Part shown: piece by piece, positions 1,873-11,841 of the stretch
How the letters are laid out: every line of letters begins with the position of its first letter
Numbering within the stretch: position 1 is the stretch's first letter
Assembly: GCA_022749845.1 (NCBI GenBank)
Contig: JAKIWX010000010.1
Span: 1-36,495 of the forward strand
Length of the DNA stretch: 36,495 nt
Direction: 5' to 3'
Source: Thermoplasmata archaeon
GTDB lineage: Archaea > Thermoplasmatota > Thermoplasmata > Lutacidiplasmatales > UBA184
Position numbers and translations under genes: made by a program
Notes under the pieces: generated by a model
Databases searched by the model: none
What the model was told of the DNA's origin: nothing
Seen by the model: only the letters and a program-made list of their open reading frames with translations

Positions 1873-3177
1873 CTAGCCGACACGTTCCCACCGTTCGAGC
1901 TTCTGTACCTTCCCGAGCGTGGAGCCACGCTGAATCTCCTCCCGGACCCGATTCTCGTGCTCGAGCACGTCGAGGGCGCGGTTCGCGACCTCCTGCGCGC
2001 GCTCTCGCGGCACGACGACGAGGCCGCTCGCATCTCCCACGATCCAGTCGCCGGGCCGGACCCGCTCGCCCCCCACGACGACCTCGACCCCGATCTCACC
2101 GTGACCCTTTGGTTCTCCGGCATTCGGAGAAACGTGCCGACTGAACACGGGAAAGCCGAGCGCGAGGATCGCGTCCAGATCTCGCACGGCCCCCTCGATC
2201 ACCACGCCGCTCACGCCCTTGCCGTGCGCGGACCAGCTCGCGAGCTCTCCCCAGATGGCCGTCGTCTGGCCCCCCGCGTCGATGACGAGGACGTCGCCGG
2301 GGCCGGCGCGGTCGATCGCCTCGACGGGTTTGGCCCAGTCCCCATCTCGGGTGACGACCGTCACCGCGGGCCCGACCAGCTTCGAGTCCGGTCGCGGGAG
2401 ATGGGCGTGCAGTCCGTGGAGCGCCCCGTGCCGCTGCATGGCGTCCGAGAGGTTGGGTGTCGAGACGCGTTCGAAGGCGGAACGGACCTCAGCCTCTCCG
2501 ACCCGGTGGAAATGTTCGCTCGGAAGCGCTTCGCGCGTGTCGATCGCGCGCCGCATGCGGATCGTCGCTTCCCGGATGTTCGGGGACTTGGTGATCGCTC
2601 CTCCGACGATGAGGATCTGCGCGCCGGCGCGTGTCGCCTGGGCCACGGTCTCGCTCGTGAGTCCGCCGGCGACCGCCACGGGCACCGGGGAGGCTCGCGC
2701 CACCCCCTCGAGTGTCGCGAACGGCGTGCGACCGGTCATCTGCATGTCGATCCCGATGTGGAGACAGACCGCGCCGGCCCCGAGCTTCGCGACAGCGCGG
2801 GCGCGCTCCACGGGGTCGGCAACACCGAGCAGATCCACCACCACCTCCGCGCCGTACTTCTCTCCCCCTCGCACCGCATCCGCGATCGTCTCGTCGTCGG
2901 CCGCCCCGAGGACGGTCACGAGATCCGCGCCCGCTTTGGCGGCGAGCTCCACCTCGAACGCGCCCGTATCCATCACTTTCATGTCGGCGACGACCCGCCG
3001 GCCCGGGAACGCCTTCTTGAGCTCGCGCACGGCGTCGAGTCCCTCGCTCTTGATGAGCGGCGTGCCCGCCTCGACCCAGTCCGCGCCGCCCTCGACCGCC
3101 TCCGCGGCGGCCGCCATCGCCCGGCTCAGATTCTCAAAGTCGAGCGCGACCTGCAGCACCGGCCGGTCGAGCTTCAC
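1873..3177 (-). CDS. Bifunctional 3-hexulose-6-phosphate synthase / RraA-like protein
   Basis: N-half: LQVALDFENLSRAM...EAGTPLIKSEGLDAVRELKKAFPGRRVVADMKVMDTG (HPS/KGPDC fold). C-half: STPNLSDAMQRHGAL...VEAIDRAGPGDVLVIDAGGQTTAIWGELAS...GVVIEGAVRDLDAI (RraA-like). Confidence 0.9.
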   Translation of the reverse strand: MKLDRPVLQVALDFENLSRAMAAAAEAVEGGADWVEAGTPLIKSEGLDAVRELKKAFPGRRVVADMKVMDTGAFEVELAAKAGADLVTVLGAADDETIADAVRGGEKYGAEVVVDLLGVADPVERARAVAKLGAGAVCLHIGIDMQMTGRTPFATLEGVARASPVPVAVAGGLTSETVAQATRAGAQILIVGGAITKSPNIREATIRMRRAIDTREALPSEHFHRVGEAEVRSAFERVSTPNLSDAMQRHGALHGLHAHLPRPDSKLVGPAVTVVTRDGDWAKPVEAIDRAGPGDVLVIDAGGQTTAIWGELASWSAHGKGVSGVVIEGAVRDLDAILALGFPVFSRHVSPNAGEPKGHGEIGVEVVVGGERVRPGDWIVGDASGLVVVPRERAQEVANRALDVLEHENRVREEIQRGSTLGKVQKLERWERVG

Positions 3178-3255
3178 GTCGAAGCAAGGGGCGGTGGCCT
3201 ACTTACCTGCGCCGGCGGGGCCGCGGCTTATCTGACGCGGGCGCGTGCTCGAGGC

Positions 3256-4050
3256 GTGGTTCTCCCCGGCATTGTGCGGGTCATCGAGGGAGACGCGCGG
3301 CGGCTGCCGGGAATCGAACCCGGGTCCGTGGAGCTGGTCGTCACCTCCCCTCCGTACCCGATGATCCCGCAGTGGGACGGCCTCTTTCGCACGCTCGGTG
3401 CGACGAGCTTCGCCGCGATGCACGCCCTGCTGGGCGAAGCGTGGGTCGCTGCGCACCGCGTGCTCTGCGAGGGGGGAATCCTCGCGGTCAACATCGGAGA
3501 TGCTCTTCGCACGGGCCCGGACGGGTTCCGCCTCTGGCCGAACCACGCCGAGGTCCTGGCCCGCGCCGAGGCGGCCGGCTTCCGGCCCCTCCCCTACCTC
3601 CTGTGGCAGAAGCCCACGAACCGTCCGAACGCCTACCTCGGCTCGGGGTTCCTTCCCCCCAACGCCTACGTGACGCTCGACTGCGAGTTCATCCTGCTCT
3701 TCCGCAAGGGGGCGCCCCGGCGCCTCCCGCCGAAGGACCCCCGACGGCTCGCCGCGCGCTACTCCCGGGCCGAGAGGGACCGGTGGTTCTCCCAGCTGTG
3801 GCAGGATGTCCGCGCCGCGCGCCAGCGAGCAGAGAACGGCGGCCGGACCGGTGCCTTCCCCCCCGAACTCCCGCGCCGCCTCGTTCGCATGTTCTCGCTC
3901 GAGGGGGAGACGGTGCTCGACCCGTTCGCCGGCACCGGCACGACCCTCTGGGCCGCGCGCGAGCTCGGACGGAACGCGATCGGGGTGGAGCGGGACCCGG
4001 CGCTCGCCGCCGAACTCAGAAAGAGGGCGGCGGGGGCGGCGGCTCGGTAG
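3256..4050 (+). CDS. DNA methyltransferase, TSPPY type (probably N4-cytosine)
   Basis: VELVVTSPPYPMIPQWDGLF (catalytic TSPPY) followed by ETVLDPFAGTGTTLWAARELGRNAIGVERDP (SAM-binding). GTG start at 3256; the upstream part of the 697-aa track ORF is antisense to HPS-RraA. Confidence 0.85.
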   Translation: MVLPGIVRVIEGDARRLPGIEPGSVELVVTSPPYPMIPQWDGLFRTLGATSFAAMHALLGEAWVAAHRVLCEGGILAVNIGDALRTGPDGFRLWPNHAEVLARAEAAGFRPLPYLLWQKPTNRPNAYLGSGFLPPNAYVTLDCEFILLFRKGAPRRLPPKDPRRLAARYSRAERDRWFSQLWQDVRAARQRAENGGRTGAFPPELPRRLVRMFSLEGETVLDPFAGTGTTLWAARELGRNAIGVERDPALAAELRKRAAGAAAR

Positions 4051-4510
4051 CGGCCGAGGCACGGTGCGCGAGCTCCTCGCGCACGGACGCGCGCAAGTAC
4101 TCTAGCGCCCGGTCGGAGAGCCGGTCCAGGTGGAGCAGCAGGTAGTGGAGATAGATCCGTTCGGGGCGGCGGGACGGACCGGGGGGCCGCTCCGGGTTCC
4201 TCGGAGAGAGCCCTTCGAGGGCTTCGAGCGTCTCGCGGTGATGCTCGTCGGCGGGGCCGTGCAGCTGGCGGCCGACCTCCCCCACGAGCGGGGGGTAGAC
4301 GTGGGCCACGGGGTCGAACTCCGGCTCGTCGCGCGGCTTCGACGCGGCGGCGTGGGTCGTCTTGAGGTGGACGTATGGGTGGGGCGCACGGGCCGGGTCC
4401 TGGAACGCCTCGAGCGGCTGGCCTGCGACCTCCTCCACAATCGTCCGGAGCGACCAGGAGTCACGCCGGGGCGGCGGGGTCGGCTCCCCCTCGGCCGGAG
4501 CCGTCGCCAT
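4016..4510 (-). CDS. Uncharacterised soluble protein at the 3' end of the T4SS-like cluster
   Basis: MATAPAEGEPTPPPRRDSWSLRTIVEEVAGQPLEAFQDPARAPHPYVHLKTTHAAASKPRDEPEFDPVAHVYPPLVGEVGRQLHGPADEHHRETLEALEGLS...; starts inside the end of the VirB4-like gene. Overlaps the 3' end of the convergent methyltransferase gene. Confidence 0.5.
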   Translation of the reverse strand: MATAPAEGEPTPPPRRDSWSLRTIVEEVAGQPLEAFQDPARAPHPYVHLKTTHAAASKPRDEPEFDPVAHVYPPLVGEVGRQLHGPADEHHRETLEALEGLSPRNPERPPGPSRRPERIYLHYLLLHLDRLSDRALEYLRASVREELAHRASAATEPPPPPPSF

Positions 4511-6221
4511 CGCCCTCGTCCCCCGCCGGGAACGGAGATAAACCTGCCCCTCGACCAGCACCGCCCGGGGGGTCCGCCTCCGTCGCGGGACCAACGAGAG
4601 CGGAGCTCAGCCACTCGTATTCGGGGGTGGAGGCGACGACGGCGATCGGCAGGTGGGCTGGCCCGAACCGGAGGAGCCCCTCGGAGTAGCCGGCCTCGCG
4701 AGGGAGCCGCGCCCGGGCGAGCCACTCCGCCTCCGCGGAGGAGAGGGCGTAGAACGCCCGAGCCTCGGGGGAGACCGGGTTCAGCCGGAGGAGAACGGTC
4801 GCCCTCAGGTTCCGGAGCGTCGAGCGCCCGGTGGGGGTGCGGAGGAAGTCGTCCGGGCTCTGGGAAAGGAGGAGGAGCCCCGCCGTGTCGTGGCGGACCC
4901 GGCGCACGAGCCCGTCGAGGAAGCTCGCCGTCCCTGGATGTCCGGCGAGCAGGTGGGCTTCGTCGACGATGAGAAGCTGCGGTCCGCTCCGCTCCGCGAG
5001 CCGGCTCGCGAGCGCATCCAGGGTGTAGCCCAGATGGAAGGCCCGCTGCTCGGGGGCGACCCCCGTCAGGTCGACGACCAGCGGGTTCCCCCCGAGCGAG
5101 ACCGTCGTCGGACCGTCGAGGTACCGCAGCGAGCCCGAGCGGAACGTCTCGAGGAGTCCGAGCAGTCTCGGAGCGCGCGACTCCTCCCGCTCCGCTTCCC
5201 CGATCAGCTCCGAGAAGGTCGGGGTGCCGGTTCGGTCGTAGAGCCGTTGGAGCGCCCGGTCGAGGAGCGCCGACTCCTCGTCCCGCAGGCTCGGGAACAG
5301 GGCGGCCAATAGCGCACCCGCGCGCGCCGCCTTCTCCGTCCCGCTGCCGCGCGAGCTCGCTGGGTCGAGGGGATTGAGGCGCGCGCCCGCGCCGGACCCG
5401 AGCGAAAGCACATCCCCGCCGAGGGATCGGGCCCACCCCCCGAACTCCCCGAGTGGGTCGAGGACTGCGATAGAGAGGCGGGGGTGCATCCAGCGTTCTC
5501 GGCTGGCGAGGAGCGCCGCCGCGAAGCTCTTGCCGGAGCCCGTCGTACCGAACAGACCCCAGGAATGGCTCGCTTGGGTCCATCGGTTCAACACGACCGG
5601 CGCGGCATCCTCGAGGGCGAGCCCGAGCAGGACCCCCCCGGGCTCGAGCACCGTCTCGTCCACGAACGGGAAGAACGCCGCGGCCGAGTCGCTCGGCAGG
5701 AGATGCCAGTACCCCTCGGGTCGGTGCGCGGGCAGTCCCGCCGTCGGGGGCGCCACGGCGGCCGCGCTTTCGTAGACGGGAACACGCAAGCGAAAGCCGG
5801 CGGCTTCGAGCGACCGTTCGAGACGGCCCCGCTCCCGCTCGGCGTCGGAGGAGCTCTTGCCCCGGGCGAAGAAGCAGAGGCCGAGCCGGAAGAGCCGCTG
5901 TTCCCGGGCCGCGAGGCTCCGGCCCACCTCTCGGGCGCTCTCCATCTCGCGTTCGAGCTCGGCGCGGCGACCCTCGGGAGGAGGGACGTTCGAGCTGAGC
6001 TCGGCCTCCGCGCGCGCCGCTACCTCCTCGAGCGTGCGGAGGGAAGGAATGGCGGGCTCGGGATGGAGCTCCATCCGGACGCCGAGCTCCCGGCCACCGC
6101 CGAGCAATCGCCCCAGGAACCCGAACGGCACCCGCGGCGGGAGGCGAGGCACGAGGAGCGGGGCGAGCGCACCCCGCGGTCCTCGAACCGCGCGCGGACT
6201 CGCTGGGGCTCGATCGGTCAC
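4461..6221 (-). CDS. VirB4/HerA-type conjugation ATPase
   Basis: HSWGLFGTTGSGKSFAAALLASRE (Walker A), SIAVLDPLGEFGGWA, GPQLLIVDEAHLLAGHPGTASFLDGLVRRVRHDTAGLLLLSQSPDDFL (Walker B plus motif III-like). GTG start at 6221 overlaps the upstream stop (GTGA). Confidence 0.85.
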   Translation of the reverse strand: MTDRAPASPRAVRGPRGALAPLLVPRLPPRVPFGFLGRLLGGGRELGVRMELHPEPAIPSLRTLEEVAARAEAELSSNVPPPEGRRAELEREMESAREVGRSLAAREQRLFRLGLCFFARGKSSSDAERERGRLERSLEAAGFRLRVPVYESAAAVAPPTAGLPAHRPEGYWHLLPSDSAAAFFPFVDETVLEPGGVLLGLALEDAAPVVLNRWTQASHSWGLFGTTGSGKSFAAALLASRERWMHPRLSIAVLDPLGEFGGWARSLGGDVLSLGSGAGARLNPLDPASSRGSGTEKAARAGALLAALFPSLRDEESALLDRALQRLYDRTGTPTFSELIGEAEREESRAPRLLGLLETFRSGSLRYLDGPTTVSLGGNPLVVDLTGVAPEQRAFHLGYTLDALASRLAERSGPQLLIVDEAHLLAGHPGTASFLDGLVRRVRHDTAGLLLLSQSPDDFLRTPTGRSTLRNLRATVLLRLNPVSPEARAFYALSSAEAEWLARARLPREAGYSEGLLRFGPAHLPIAVVASTPEYEWLSSALVGPATEADPPGGAGRGAGLSPFPAGDEGDGDGSGRGGADPAAPA

Positions 6222-6574
6222 GGTGTCCCCTCCGGCCGCCGAGAAGCAGGGCGGCCGAGGAGTGCCCCGAGAAGCGTCGCGGAGGCGAGGAGAGCAACGC
6301 GCCCGGGCCCAACGAGGAGAAGATACGCCCCCAACGCCGAGAGTCCCGCGCTGGCGAGGAGCGCGAGGCGGCCTCGCGATCGGACGGCGGGTGCCGCGTC
6401 GGCCCATCGAAGCAGGAGGGCGACGAACACGAGGACCGAGAGCGTCGCGGTAACCGCCGCGAATCCCGGCCACGCGACGCCGAGGAGAGCGGACACGAGG
6501 ACGCCGGCGGCGGCGAGGCCGAGCGGATCGGGGCTCTCCCCGCCGGCGGGGGCTCGCGCCGTCATTCGGCCCAT
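6218..6574 (-). CDS. Small polytopic membrane protein of the T4SS-like cluster
   Basis: 118 aa with hydrophobic segments (LGLAAAGVLVSALLGVAWPGFAAVTATLSVLVFVALLL; LALLASAGLSALGAYLLLV; VALLASATLLGALLG). Overlaps both neighbouring genes. Confidence 0.65.
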   Translation of the reverse strand: MGRMTARAPAGGESPDPLGLAAAGVLVSALLGVAWPGFAAVTATLSVLVFVALLLRWADAAPAVRSRGRLALLASAGLSALGAYLLLVGPGRVALLASATLLGALLGRPASRRPEGTP

Positions 6575-7323
6575 CCTCCGCCTGATCCAGCGAGCCGGGC
6601 TAGCTCGCTTCCCTGCAGGCGTTCCGCCGGGAGCTCAAGCCGCTCGAGAGATGCACGGAGCGACTCAACCCGTGCGGAGAGGCGGCCGAGGGAGACCGCG
6701 CCCGTGCCGGGTTCCACGAGGAGGATTCTCACGACGCGCCGACGCCGCCGGCGAAGGAGGAGGGTGAGGAACTCCCGGTACGAGCGTTGGGCCGCCGCGT
6801 CCGACGTGGCGGTATCTCCCGCGCCCGAGTCCCGGGGGAGAAACGGAGCGGTAGGAAGCGCGCTCGTGTCCACCTCCATCCAGAGAGATCCCGCCAGAGC
6901 GTCGAGCAGGGCGCGGTAGGCCCGAAACCTCGCCTCCTGCTCGGCCACTGGGAGGAAGGCGAGCGGGAGGCCACCCGCCCGGACCCCGGCCGCGAATCCC
7001 CCTTCGCAGCGGTAGACGGTCCGCGTGGACCCGACGTTCGCCGTCGGTGCACCGTGCCTCGGGCGAAATCTCCACCGCAGGTAGTCGCCGCAGCGCTCGT
7101 CCACGGACTTGCCGTCGGTCCGGTAGACCGCGAGCAGGAAGCCGCCGCCGACGAACGGCAGCCAGAAGAGCGGCCCCGCGAGCGCGGCCACGACGGCACC
7201 GAGGGCGAGCGCGAGCAGAAACTTGAGGGCGTCCGTCACGCTCGGGAAAGGACCGAACCTTGGCTTGCCGAGGAGAGCCTCGGGCAACCTGAGCTCCAGC
7301 GTTGCGGCGCTGGAGGAGCTCAT
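6562..7323 (-). CDS. PrgI/VirB3-like membrane protein with a possible VirB4-N-terminal-like cytoplasmic region
   Basis: N-terminal pair of adjacent TM helices (ALKFLLALALGAVVAALAGPLFWLPFVGGGFLLAVY), then a soluble domain ending in RVESLRASLERLELPAERLQGSELARLAG. Start overlaps the upstream stop (ATGA at 7320-7323). Confidence 0.55.
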   Translation of the reverse strand: MSSSSAATLELRLPEALLGKPRFGPFPSVTDALKFLLALALGAVVAALAGPLFWLPFVGGGFLLAVYRTDGKSVDERCGDYLRWRFRPRHGAPTANVGSTRTVYRCEGGFAAGVRAGGLPLAFLPVAEQEARFRAYRALLDALAGSLWMEVDTSALPTAPFLPRDSGAGDTATSDAAAQRSYREFLTLLLRRRRRRVVRILLVEPGTGAVSLGRLSARVESLRASLERLELPAERLQGSELARLAGSGGGWAE

Positions 7324-8438
7324 CGGCTCGGCCCGCGCATTGGTGGAATCCGCGGGCGACGCGCTGCCCCGGCCGGTCGGTGCGGAAGATGGGCGAGGAG
7401 CCGCGCGCCGCCGCTGCCGATGAGAGAGGCGGTGAGGACGGGGAGGGCCAGGGCGGGCGCAACGGAGGAGGCGCCGCGGACGGCGCCGGCCAGGGGGGCG
7501 CTCCAGCCTCCCCGGCGCGCTAGGCCGCCCACGGGACGCAGCAGGCTCTCAAGGCCCGTGCCCGCGCTGGCGAGCCCGCGCTGGATCCCCCCCGCCAGCA
7601 CGCCGCTCGCGCTCGGGAGTCCGACCGCACCGAGCGACTGGCCGGCGACCGACAGCAGCGCAGGGGCCCCCAGCGCCGCCACGAGGTAGCCGAGGAGAAG
7701 CAGGATGGAGGAGGATCCGACCGCGAGCTCGAGAGGAATCACGACGACCGCGGGAAGGAACGCGAGCTCGCCGAACCAGAGCCATCCGCGACGGGCGAGC
7801 GGGGCGAGCGTCGGGATCGGCCATAGGAGCGTGAACACCGGCAGGAGCACGAGCAGCACACCCAGGAGCGCGTTCCGGACGGCGATCGCGGCGCAGAGGA
7901 GCAGGACGACGCTCAGCAGGACGAAGGCGACGGCGAACGCGAGGATCCCGTTGTCCCAACTGAAGCTACCGAACCCCACGCCTCCGAGGTTCACCCAAGA
8001 TTGCCACGCCCCCCCGTCGAACCCGGCCACGACGGGATAGGTCCACGCGGCGAGCCCGAACAGTGCCCCCGCGACCGGTAGGGTGAAGTTCGCGAGCAGC
8101 GCGCCGACGACCAGGCGGGGGAACAACTCGCGGAGCCGAGGGGCGAGCGAGGGAAGAAGGGCCCGGAGCAGGTAGAGCAGCCCTACCCCGAGCACGACAA
8201 GGACGAGGGCGGGGTCCACGAGGTTCGCCACCAGGTACTCGGAGAATCGCGCGGCCACCGAGAGGAAGCCGCCCGCGCCGGAAGGATCCGGGGGAAGCGA
8301 GGGGTAGAGGGCCGCCGTCTGCATCTCGGGAACGAACAGGTGGTCGTACGTCGGGCCAAGGACCGCGGCGAGCGCCGCGGTGAGGAGCGCGAAGATGGCG
8401 AAGAGGATCGCCTGGACGCTCGTCGAAACCGGATCCAT
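7320..8438 (-). CDS. Polytopic VirB6/TrbL-like membrane channel protein
   Basis: 372 aa with many hydrophobic segments, a long extracellular-type N-terminal loop and a Gly/Ala-rich tail. Called VirB6/TrbL-like from topology and operon context. Confidence 0.55.
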   Translation of the reverse strand: MDPVSTSVQAILFAIFALLTAALAAVLGPTYDHLFVPEMQTAALYPSLPPDPSGAGGFLSVAARFSEYLVANLVDPALVLVVLGVGLLYLLRALLPSLAPRLRELFPRLVVGALLANFTLPVAGALFGLAAWTYPVVAGFDGGAWQSWVNLGGVGFGSFSWDNGILAFAVAFVLLSVVLLLCAAIAVRNALLGVLLVLLPVFTLLWPIPTLAPLARRGWLWFGELAFLPAVVVIPLELAVGSSSILLLLGYLVAALGAPALLSVAGQSLGAVGLPSASGVLAGGIQRGLASAGTGLESLLRPVGGLARRGGWSAPLAGAVRGASSVAPALALPVLTASLIGSGGARLLAHLPHRPAGAARRPRIPPMRGPSR

Positions 8439-8456
8439 CCGGGCCTCCGTTCCGGC

Positions 8457-8843
8457 TCAAGCGCCGGTCACGACCCACTGCGCGAGACCCCAGACGAGCC
8501 CGGTGACCGCCGCCGTGAAGACGAGGGTTCCGATGAGCGCGTCCCGGGCTCGCTCGCGTGCCTGCACCTTCTTGCTCAGGTCGTGCGAGAACCAGCTCAC
8601 GGCGACGCGCGCCCAGACGAGCGCGAGGAGCCCGCCGCCGGCCGCGGCCACGAGCGTGACGAGCCTACCGATCGCCGCAGTGAAGTTCCCTTCCGGCGAA
8701 GCGGCACCTCGGTGGTCCCGGGGGTCTCGGCCCGCCGAGGCGGGGGCGATCGGCCCGACCGAGAATGGTGGGAGCACGAGGAGCAGGGTGACCATCAGGA
8801 ACAGGACACAGGAGAACAGCCCCGTCCCCCCACGGGGATTCAT
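8457..8843 (-). CDS. Two-helix VirB2/TrbC-like (pilin-like) membrane protein
   Basis: MNPRGGTGLFSCVLFLMVTLLLVLPPFSVGPIAPASAG (signal-like), then helix AIGRLVTLVAAAGGGLLALVWARVAVSWF, basic loop SHDLSKKVQARERARD, helix ALIGTLVFTAAVTGLVWGLAQWVV. ATG overlaps the upstream stop (ATGA at 8840-8843). Confidence 0.5.
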   Translation of the reverse strand: MNPRGGTGLFSCVLFLMVTLLLVLPPFSVGPIAPASAGRDPRDHRGAASPEGNFTAAIGRLVTLVAAAGGGLLALVWARVAVSWFSHDLSKKVQARERARDALIGTLVFTAAVTGLVWGLAQWVVTGA

Positions 8844-11119
8844 GCTCGCTCCTCGTGCCCACGCGCGGCGCGCGGGGACGGACGCTCCTGATTCGAAGCT
8901 CCGGTCCAGCGGTAGAGCGCGGGCTCGTCGCCCTCCTCGATGCCTTCCGCCCGGCCGAGCGCGACCCATCGTCGGAGCGCCCTCCGGGTCGACTCGGGCT
9001 CGATCCCCTCCTCCTCGGCGAGCAGGAGCAGCGACTCCTCGTCGAGACCGTCGCTTTCCCGGAGCAACCGCCGGACCGTCGGGAGCGCCCCCGTCGATTC
9101 CGGGCGAGAGGGGGAAGGTCGCCGTGGGAGACGTCCTCGGAACAACCAGGCTAGCCCGAGCAGCAGCGCGATGGGGAGCGAGACCCAGGGAACCCAACCG
9201 GCCGCCCCTCCCACCGATCCCGCACTCCCGATGGAACCGTTCGGGCCACCCCCTCTCGGGGACGCCGAAGGACCGGCCACTCCGGGCGCCACCGCCACGG
9301 TGAGGTTCGCGTCGCCTCGGAACCCGAGCGAATCGGAGACCGCGAGTCGGACCGCGAGGTACCCCGCGACGCGTGGTAGGGCGCTCCAGTCCGCGGGTCC
9401 CGGCGCCGAGAGGTTACCCTGCGCCGTCTCTCCGTCGGAGAGGCTCAACGCGTACCGGTACGGCGGAGCACCGCCGCCCACCGTGAAGCTGAGCGAGAGG
9501 GGCTCGCCCGCCGAGGGAGCGACGGAAGCGAGCAGGAGCGAGCTTGCGACCGGCTCGAGCACCCGGAGCGTCAGGTTCGAGCTCACCGCGGCGCCCGAGG
9601 CGTCCACGAGCGTCACGACGAACAGCCCCACGCCCGGAGCCGCGAGCTTCCCCTCCCAGCTGAAGAGACCGGCGGAGGAGACGCTCCCGAAGCGGGGGGA
9701 GCTGGCGCTCAGGGCGGCGGTGGTCGCGATCGACCAGTTGAGCGGAGGCGTACCTCCCCCGCTCAGCCCCACCACCTCGACCGACCCGCCTACCTCCGAC
9801 AGGCTGGGAGTCAGGTTCGCGAGGAGGAACGGGCTAGAGTGCACGGGCGCGAGCGGGACCGAGAGCGAGCTCGATACGCCGAGGGCGTCGGTGACCGAGA
9901 GCGAGGCCCACAGCGGAGCCGCAAGCAACGGGACGAGGGCTTCGGTCCAGTTGCCCGCGGTGGGTGCCGTGAAACCGAAGGAGGAGCCGGAAGGCACGGA
10001 GCTCCCGGTGACGGTGAACGGCCCTACGCCGCCCGCCACCGACAGGACAAACGGCATCGGGCGGCCGACGTCCCCACCCGAGGCCAGCACGAGCGTGTGG
10101 AGCGAGACCGTCGGGGCGACGGGGAAGGTGCGCTCGACTCGGACCGCGTCGCCGAGCCGGTCCGTCACGAGAAGCCCGACGAGGAGAGTTCGCGCGACCG
10201 TCGGCGGGACCGACCACGCCGCGCCGGTGCCGGCGTCCCCCGAGCTGTCGTTCCAGAGAAAGCTGTACGGAGGGAATCCGCCTTCGACCAACGCCGCGAG
10301 AGGGAATCCCACGCCGACCTCAGGTCCCAGCGCGCCGGGGACTACTTGCGCCGCAAGCGAGCTTGCGACGAGCACCGAGGAGCTCGCGCTCCCTACGACG
10401 CGCTCGCCGAGCGGATCGGTCACGCTCACGGTGGGGAGGTAGGTTCCGAGCGCGAACTGGTGGGTGACGGAGAAGGGACCCGTGGTGGAAAGGGTGAACG
10501 AGGAGCTGTTCCCGTCCCCGAACTCGACCGACACCGAGTAGGGCGGCTCTCCCCCCGAGAGAGCACCGCGGCAGATTACGGGGGTACCGGGTTGCACGGG
10601 GCCGATCCCGGCCGACCAGCCCGAGAGGAGGAGCGAGGGCACGGTGAAGACCCTCGCGTACGCCTCGGTCCCGAAGGAGACGTTGTTCGTCGAGCAGAGG
10701 ATTGCCCCCTCGACGGTCGCGCTCAGCACGACCGAACCCGAGACCCCGGGGAAGGCGGTGAACTGCACGGTGGTTCCCGTGGGGCTGACGAGAGCGCCGA
10801 GGGGGAGCGCCCCGGCGGCGAGCTCCCAGACCACCACCGGTGTGACCACGGCGCACCCAGGAGATGCCGAGGTCACGGACAACACGAAACTCGCATTCTC
10901 CCCGTCCGCGACCGTGGCGGCCGCGGGCACGATCTGCACGGCGGCGAACCCCTCGAAGGAGGCTGCCGGAGGGGACGCGAACAACGGCGCTGGGCGGGTC
11001 GATAGGTGCGCACCGCCTCCGCCCGAGAGGACGGAGGCGAGGAAAATCACTCCGGCCACGACGCCGATCCCGAGCTCTGCCGCCTTCCCACTGTTGCGCC
11101 TCGGCGCCACTGCCACCAC
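8840..11119 (-). CDS. Secreted multi-Ig/PKD-like surface protein with C-terminal TM anchor and cytoplasmic winged-helix-like tail
   Basis: N-terminal signal helix; repeated SGGEPPYSVSVEFGDGNSS..., EGGFPPYSFLWNDSSGDAG, GGGAPPYRYALSLSDG motifs; TM WVPWVSLPIALLLGLAWLFRGRLPRR; tail DEESLLLLAEEEGIEPESTRRALRRWVALGRAEGIEEGDEPALYRW. Confidence 0.8.
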   Translation of the reverse strand: MVAVAPRRNSGKAAELGIGVVAGVIFLASVLSGGGGAHLSTRPAPLFASPPAASFEGFAAVQIVPAAATVADGENASFVLSVTSASPGCAVVTPVVVWELAAGALPLGALVSPTGTTVQFTAFPGVSGSVVLSATVEGAILCSTNNVSFGTEAYARVFTVPSLLLSGWSAGIGPVQPGTPVICRGALSGGEPPYSVSVEFGDGNSSSFTLSTTGPFSVTHQFALGTYLPTVSVTDPLGERVVGSASSSVLVASSLAAQVVPGALGPEVGVGFPLAALVEGGFPPYSFLWNDSSGDAGTGAAWSVPPTVARTLLVGLLVTDRLGDAVRVERTFPVAPTVSLHTLVLASGGDVGRPMPFVLSVAGGVGPFTVTGSSVPSGSSFGFTAPTAGNWTEALVPLLAAPLWASLSVTDALGVSSSLSVPLAPVHSSPFLLANLTPSLSEVGGSVEVVGLSGGGTPPLNWSIATTAALSASSPRFGSVSSAGLFSWEGKLAAPGVGLFVVTLVDASGAAVSSNLTLRVLEPVASSLLLASVAPSAGEPLSLSFTVGGGAPPYRYALSLSDGETAQGNLSAPGPADWSALPRVAGYLAVRLAVSDSLGFRGDANLTVAVAPGVAGPSASPRGGGPNGSIGSAGSVGGAAGWVPWVSLPIALLLGLAWLFRGRLPRRPSPSRPESTGALPTVRRLLRESDGLDEESLLLLAEEEGIEPESTRRALRRWVALGRAEGIEEGDEPALYRWTGASNQERPSPRAARGHEERA

Positions 11120-11184: not shown

Positions 11185-11841
11185 CTACCCTTCGATGCCG
11201 ATCGCCGCGTGGTCGCGGGAATAGGGGGCGAGGTCGACCGCGGGCCGGGGAGCGAGGCCTGCGCGCTCGAGCTCCGCCCTCGCTTCCTGGATGACGGTCC
11301 GGGGGGAGCGGCGCTGGGTGACACTACGGACCTTGAGCATCAGCAGGCCGCGAGCTCCGGATGCGAGCGTGGCCGCGGCGTTCTCCGCGAAGATCCGGGT
11401 CTGGTCTCGCTGGGCGAGGTCTTGGTAGAGGAAGTCGATCGGCGCGACGTCGGCGCGATACCTCTCGGGTAGCTGCGCGTCCGCGAGGAGCGGCAGGAGG
11501 TTCTCGCGTTCGCGGGAGAGGGCGAGAAGATGCGAGAAGGCGCTCGCGCTCTTCTCGACGACGTACAGCTCGGCACGCGGCAGGAGGTCCGAAAGGTGGC
11601 TCGCGGTCGTCCCGTGGGCCGCCCCGAGGTAGAGGAGCCGCTGCACGCGGGAAAGGTCGAGGGACGCCCCCGGGGTCCGTAGGTAGGCGGCGAGCTTGCT
11701 GCGCCAGGGGTCCCAGCGGCGGTACTCGGCCCCCTCCTCGGCCCGCAGCTCCTCGCCGTACACCGAGCGTCCAGGAACTAGGTTCGGTGTGTAGAGCTCC
11801 GCGCCGGCGCGGACCACGCCGGGAAACCTCGTCGACTCCAA
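11185..11841 (-). CDS. flpA: Fibrillarin-like rRNA/tRNA 2'-O-methyltransferase
   Basis: LYTPNLVPGRSVYGEE...YRRWDPWRSKLAAYL...VQRLLYLGAAHGTTASHLSDLLPRAELYVVEKSASAF matches the archaeal fibrillarin layout. Confidence 0.9.
   Translation of the reverse strand: MESTRFPGVVRAGAELYTPNLVPGRSVYGEELRAEEGAEYRRWDPWRSKLAAYLRTPGASLDLSRVQRLLYLGAAHGTTASHLSDLLPRAELYVVEKSASAFSHLLALSRERENLLPLLADAQLPERYRADVAPIDFLYQDLAQRDQTRIFAENAAATLASGARGLLMLKVRSVTQRRSPRTVIQEARAELERAGLAPRPAVDLAPYSRDHAAIGIEG

Follow-up and report, generated by a model that had tools for sequence, protein, structure and literature searches.

A candidate DNA-exchange machine of the Ced/Ted kind in Thermoplasmata, with an apparently split VirB4

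A conserved seven-gene block

This report concerns a block of seven genes in a 36,495-nucleotide stretch of DNA from a Thermoplasmata archaeon (GenBank assembly GCA_022749845.1, contig JAKIWX010000010.1), referred to here as the window. Its assembly, of which the window is contig C2, totals 1.83 Mb in 159 contigs and is 88.5% complete. A preliminary description, made from the sequence alone, had proposed that the block encodes a domesticated machine derived from a conjugative type IV secretion system (T4SS). All seven genes (g1, g2, g3, g4, g5, VirB4 and g7), as well as the overlaps that it listed, are indeed present in one block on the minus strand at 4016-11119. Features are as follows.

8840-11119, minus strand: g1, membrane-anchored surface protein with an Ig/PKD-like ectodomain, a transmembrane helix and a cytoplasmic winged-helix-like tail (~8954-9079)
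8457-8843, minus strand: g2, VirB2-like pilin with an N-terminal hydrophobic segment, then helix, basic loop and helix
7320-8438, minus strand: g3, polytopic channel protein, VirB6/CedA-like on the basis of AlphaFold and Foldseek
6562-7323, minus strand: g4, VirB3/PrgI-like membrane hairpin (~7066-7239), then the apparent first half of a VirB4 N-terminal domain (~6580-7014)
6218-6574, minus strand: g5, small membrane protein of several helices, encoded between g4 and VirB4
4461-6221, minus strand: VirB4-type ATPase, motor domain preceded by the apparent second half of the N-terminal domain
5526-5549, minus strand: VirB4 Walker A (GTTGSGKS), core residues invariant in 33 orthologues
4959-4964, minus strand: VirB4 Walker B acidic pair (DE), invariant in 33 orthologues
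4016-4510, minus strand: g7, soluble protein with the conserved C-terminal motif RPERIYLHYLLLHLDRLSDxALxYL, a family-specific accessory

Neighboring genes overlap at ATGA (8840-8843 and 7320-7323), over 13 nt (6562-6574) and at GTGA (6218-6221), and the reading frames of VirB4 and g7 share about 50 nt. When start codons are chosen by a simple rule, the ATGA spacing at g3/g4 is exact in 8 of 41 loci; gene order and strand, unlike this exact spacing, are widely conserved. The start of g7 is most likely 4510 rather than an upstream TTG. Related genomes were grouped into families labelled f1, f15 and so on, f1 being the family of the window genome. With the exception of g5, the block proteins could each be aligned with orthologues drawn from 30-40 fetched loci of the family, and they exhibit many invariant residues. 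Because these orthologues align and the catalytic residues of VirB4 are invariant, the genes are not chance open reading frames (ORFs).

Identity of the core proteins

The preliminary description left the ATPase as either VirB4 or HerA. When an alignment profile of this protein was compared with the PDB, the best match was VirB4 (4ag5, E 1.5e-34), and HerA-type proteins matched at 2e-7 or weaker. Pfam assigns DUF87, AAA_10 and P-loop_TraG to the window protein, and G228, G230 and K231 of Walker A and D420 and E421 of Walker B do not vary among the 33 sequences. Judged by its sequence, the block ATPase is a VirB4 rather than a HerA. No nurA lies beside it, and a NurA search of the incomplete window genome found none, so that the generic HerA next to nurA that the preliminary description had named as counting against its proposal is not what the locus contains.

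For g3, sequence and profile searches against Pfam and the PDB gave no meaningful match. Its AlphaFold model (mean pLDDT 80.7, with most of the core above 90) was compared with the PDB by Foldseek, and ranks 1-5 are all TrwI/VirB6 of the R388 T4SS (probability 0.98-1.00, E 4e-3 to 2e-2). Nine of the top 10 rows are chains of R388 stalk/inner membrane complex entries that hold VirB6. The E-values are modest, and it is the unanimity of these fold matches that argues for g3 as a predicted VirB6-like channel, in keeping with the earlier assignment of this polytopic protein to the T4SS.

The alignment of g2 exhibits a helix, a basic loop and a second helix, with 21 invariant residues. The preliminary description of a small two-helix protein captured this hairpin and missed a third, N-terminal hydrophobic segment that resembles a signal peptide. 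PF18895 (T4SS_pilin) matches 17 of 34 g2 orthologues (best E 1e-4); the window protein falls below the gathering score, and a homologue at locus L100 exceeds it (34.3 versus 26.6 bits). These family matches agree with the proposal that g2 is a T4SS part, and its sequence suggests that it supplies the VirB2-like pilin of a T4SS core. The g2 profile matched no chain in a PDB set that should include the CedA1 and TedC pili. Homology between g2 and the N terminus of g3, as reported for CedA1 and CedA, was considered and not seen (4.5% probability). At L100 (10829-15703), an array of approximately five genes ends in T4SS-pilin-like hairpins, most of them with large N-terminal ectodomains.

A VirB3-VirB4 unit that appears to be divided

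The preliminary description of g4 as PrgI/VirB3-like accounts for part of the protein. PrgI matches 7 of 34 members weakly (best E 0.011, below the gathering score), consistent with a VirB3-like hairpin. A second domain, of VirB4 type, had been overlooked. The AlphaFold model of g4 (pLDDT 85) places an alpha/beta domain after a hairpin, and, among the PDB rows listed by Foldseek, the best query-normalized TM scores belong to TrwK/VirB4 (0.39, 0.36 and 0.35; probability 0.84-0.90). A sequence profile of g4 found nothing useful in the PDB.

Natural fusions bear on the same point. In two f19 genomes (L115 and L116), one continuous ORF of approximately 650-680 amino acids encodes both g4 and VirB4. 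A profile built from those f19 g4 proteins that are separate from VirB4 matches the fused L116 protein (E 1.3e-5), with its main stretches N-terminal, and also bridges to the g4 protein of L100 (3.3e-7); the L115 fusion, which the profile does not detect, could be placed only by alignment. Because the two proteins are one in these Thermoplasmata genomes, we consider VirB4 to be split in the window genome. Thus, the N-terminal domain of VirB4 appears to have its first half in g4, and g4 plus the ATPase would be a VirB3-VirB4 unit cut inside that domain, a split that is new here. The fusions suggest that such a unit can be cut and rejoined.

Between g4 and VirB4, all family loci examined carry g5 as a fast-evolving hydrophobic ORF of 113-154 amino acids, and a similar hydrophobic ORF occupies this position in L100 and L105. 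VirB8 has been reported to be absent from archaea (PMC11868833).

Accessory proteins

Pfam matches to g1 are weak, namely PKD/PKD_4 (E ~0.01-0.02) and DUF5817_CT (E 0.037) at residues 681-722. The ectodomain is large and variable, and the protein ranges from approximately 1800 to fewer than 120 amino acids. Throughout the family, and in the L100 genome as well, g1 retains the winged-helix-like cytoplasmic tail; in L033 and L035, it is reduced to this tail alone, and the machine is kept. Since the tail is retained while the ectodomain varies, the role of g1 inside the cell is presumably more constant than its role outside. The g7 alignment has 32 members, and no Pfam family matches it. The gene occurs in 36 of 41 loci, is displaced from VirB4 in some genera and is found solely in f1 loci.

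Genomic location and inheritance

Among 40 fetched family loci, the block adjoins flpA/ridA in 30, and the HPS-RraA gene and a DNA methylase gene in 28. This synteny confirms that the block stands between housekeeping genes, and does so in approximately 30 relatives. A conjugative element would be expected to have a variable insertion site, and the block has one address in 30 of the 40 loci. In the genera with the genus labels g2, g3, g4 and g7 (not the genes of those names), the core gene order is kept at other addresses. Of 71 genomes positive for g4, 69 have one copy of the gene. When apparent absences of g4 were checked, either the flanking genes were missing too or a contig ended within the block, and no clean empty site was seen; one such genome (G004), seemingly lacking g4, retains VirB4 and g7. 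Clean loss of the block is therefore unsupported, and, for the same reason, the block is likely present across the whole family f1.

The system is not limited to the lineage of the window: other families of Thermoplasmata also have its core. A search for MCR-alpha, intended to help identify these families, was negative. We detected g3 in 40 of 392 genomes of the phylum, 20 of them outside f1, in f11, f15, f19, f26 and f29. Where the locus is intact in other families, the order g2-g3-g4-VirB4 is identical. The g4 profile finds nothing in f29, in f11 or at some f19 loci; the place of g4 is taken there by a VirB4 fusion or by an ORF of about the right size. In trees of both VirB4 and g3, each of f1, f15, f19 and f29 is monophyletic with support of at least 0.975, and the distances correlate with r = 0.92. 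Such agreement is predicted by vertical co-inheritance of VirB4 and g3.

Several neighbors of the block were also noted. An N6_N4 DNA methylase gene (3199-4050, plus strand), present in 28 family loci, is convergent with g7 and overlaps its end by approximately 35 nt; possibly, it marks self DNA. On the other side lies a fibrillarin-like gene (11185-11841, minus strand) that is approximately 60% identical between genera; a second kind is approximately 40% identical, and G049 carries both. The gene at 1873-3177 (minus strand) encodes a fused HUMPS/HPS-type and RraA-like protein that is approximately 80% identical across the family, far above the T4SS genes.

Relaxase and coupling ATPase

The preliminary description saw neither relaxase nor VirD4, and the first of these statements stands as far as it was searched: PF03432, the main relaxase family and the only one searched, is found in 0 of 61 family genomes. 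PF02534 (VirD4) is absent from the window's own genome and from 57 of the 61 family genomes. However, a HerA/TrwB-like ATPase on another contig of the same genome (C72; L128 6779-9664) exceeds the PF10412 (TrwB_AAD_bind) cut-off, with 25.5 versus 20.5 bits. The absence of VirD4 is therefore true for the window and not secure for the genome.

Orthologues of the C72 ATPase occur in most f1 genomes, and in four of these the distance to g4 is approximately 2.6 kb, in the direction of g7. One orthologue (L027) has a weak winged-helix match. By eye only, PDG...EAEVS residues in the C-terminal region of the C72 protein resemble a PD-(D/E)XK nuclease; Pfam gave no match for this domain. The C72 gene adjoins a gene for a PKD-repeat protein (L128 3325-6204). 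In f29, another TrwB-like ATPase gene directly follows VirB4, with overlapping frames (L101 11924-14035; L102 12332-14362).

Proposed function and alternatives

Given the identities of its parts, its synteny and the absence of PF03432, the block is supported as a chromosomal, domesticated system without a recognized relaxase, and the machine itself is very likely T4SS-derived. We propose that it serves DNA exchange in the manner of Ced and Ted, with a probability of roughly 0.6. In this model, g2 would polymerize into a conjugation-type pilus on the VirB6-like g3 channel, and the split VirB4 (g4 plus the ATPase) would dock on the channel through g4 and g5 to power pilus assembly, DNA movement or both. 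The Ig-repeat surface protein g1 may contact the partner cell, and its cytoplasmic tail may signal to the machine or bind it. By analogy with Ced and Ted, the cargo is probably DNA, presumably cellular (chromosomal) DNA swapped between related cells. The pilus, the cargo, the direction of its transfer and the roles of g1, g5 and g7 are the parts of the model that we infer.

Several observations weigh against this proposal. The gene roles and the proposed function are predictions from sequences and models. The Foldseek E-values of g3 (0.004) and g4 (0.16) are weak when each is taken in isolation, and g4 exceeds no Pfam gathering score. As its 40 detections among the 392 phylum genomes imply, g3 is not in every Thermoplasmata family, and the correlation between the VirB4 and g3 trees partly reflects shared species history. 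NurA, the proposed maker of single-stranded DNA for Ced and Ted, is among the proteins not found in the 88.5% complete genome. A secretion or adhesion role also retains some probability.

The first such role is a T4SS kept for delivery of proteins or effectors, or for interactions that depend on contact with other cells, a role suggested for the relaxase-less T4SSs of Patescibacteria. The lack of PF03432 and, in the window's own genome, of a PF02534-type VirD4 fits this role, and Patescibacteria retain relaxase-less T4SSs with pilin arrays (PMC12102498), such as the L100 genome also has. Nevertheless, we consider it unlikely, as the block has no evident effector-like gene, and the TrwB-like ATPase that adjoins the block in four relatives is of the kind that pumps DNA in conjugation. 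Somewhat less probable again is an apparatus for attachment only, in which g2 fibers and g1 adhere and VirB4 merely assembles the pilus. The large, variable g1 ectodomains, in proteins of up to ~1800 amino acids, and the big N-terminal ectodomains on L100 pilin domains would suit adhesion, but two genomes dropped the g1 ectodomain yet retain the machine, whose VirB6-type channel is conserved throughout.

An integrative conjugative element, whether remnant or resident, has only a slim chance. All core parts are conjugation-derived, and archaeal conjugative plasmids likewise have no recognizable relaxases (PMC9905601), but the block has a common address in different genera, is flanked by housekeeping genes, occurs in single copy and gives trees that look vertical, and no clean empty site was seen; these points, together with the absence of PF03432, led us to reject it. 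Finally, a generic HerA-type DNA-repair helicase cluster is scarcely credible and was rejected, for although the VirB4 gene scores to DUF87, its structure match to VirB4 is 27 orders of magnitude better than to HerA-type proteins, a separate and stronger HerA-type gene sits on contig C81, and NurA was not found.

A bolder form of the DNA-exchange proposal is possible though doubtful. The block would then add to Ced and Ted a third domesticated conjugation system, one that was elaborated independently, is passed down in much of the class Thermoplasmata and moves chromosomal DNA between cells. Its VirB4 would be split between a VirB3-like protein and the motor, the winged-helix-tailed Ig protein would sense the partner, and the TrwB-like ATPase with its C-terminal nuclease-like domain would replace both relaxase and coupling protein. 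The domesticated conjugation machines described so far, Ced and Ted, both belong to Thermoproteota. If the proposal is true, Thermoplasmata as a whole have a counterpart, and machines for DNA exchange would be more general among archaea. Such a counterpart would supply a mechanism by which Ferroplasma populations could recombine as heavily as they do (reviewed in PMC2704941), and DNA exchange could then be tested in cultured organisms.

Comparison with known systems

Ced and Ted are chromosomal systems with a VirB2-like pilus, a VirB6-like pore and a VirB4-like ATPase, and DNA import has been shown for Ced (PMC9905601). The block is of this type, in that it is a chromosomal, vertically kept VirB2/VirB6/VirB4 set without a PF03432 relaxase. 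Ted of Thermoproteales (TedA, TedB and TedC; PMC9905601), likened here by its description, has this relaxase-less minimal set in common with the window system. In contrast, the window system belongs to a different phylum, has a VirB4 that appears split with a VirB3-like hairpin in g4, and is linked to g1, g5 and g7; no HerA, Rad50 or ParA was seen linked to the window block. Ced of Sulfolobales and Desulfurococcales (CedA, CedA1, CedB, CedD and CedE; PMC9905601, PMC11868833) is likewise a domesticated T4SS whose VirB4 N-terminal domain is shared by two proteins, since CedB and CedD of Sulfolobales together make up one such domain (PMC11868833). However, CedB and CedD each retain an ATPase domain, whereas the g4 half has none.

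T4SSs of Patescibacteria (PMC12102498) are also widespread and mostly relaxase-less, often with VirB2-like pilins in arrays, but they are bacterial, have an MPF_FATA-related set and include no VirB3-VirB4 fusions in that dataset. We found no open-licence paper that links Thermoplasmata to a Ced-like system. The nearest account is a 2016 genome description of Cuniculiplasma, which lists a cluster (CSP5_1185-1189; arCOG05340, arCOG04034 VirB4 and arCOG05369) as 'type IV secretion components' (PMC5155288); the portions of it that bear on this cluster contain neither a split-VirB4 analysis nor a Ced-like DNA-exchange hypothesis. As described there, VirB4, a multipass protein and membrane proteins are clustered. 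Matched by this published description, the Cuniculiplasma cluster is very probably the same system in Thermoplasmatales.

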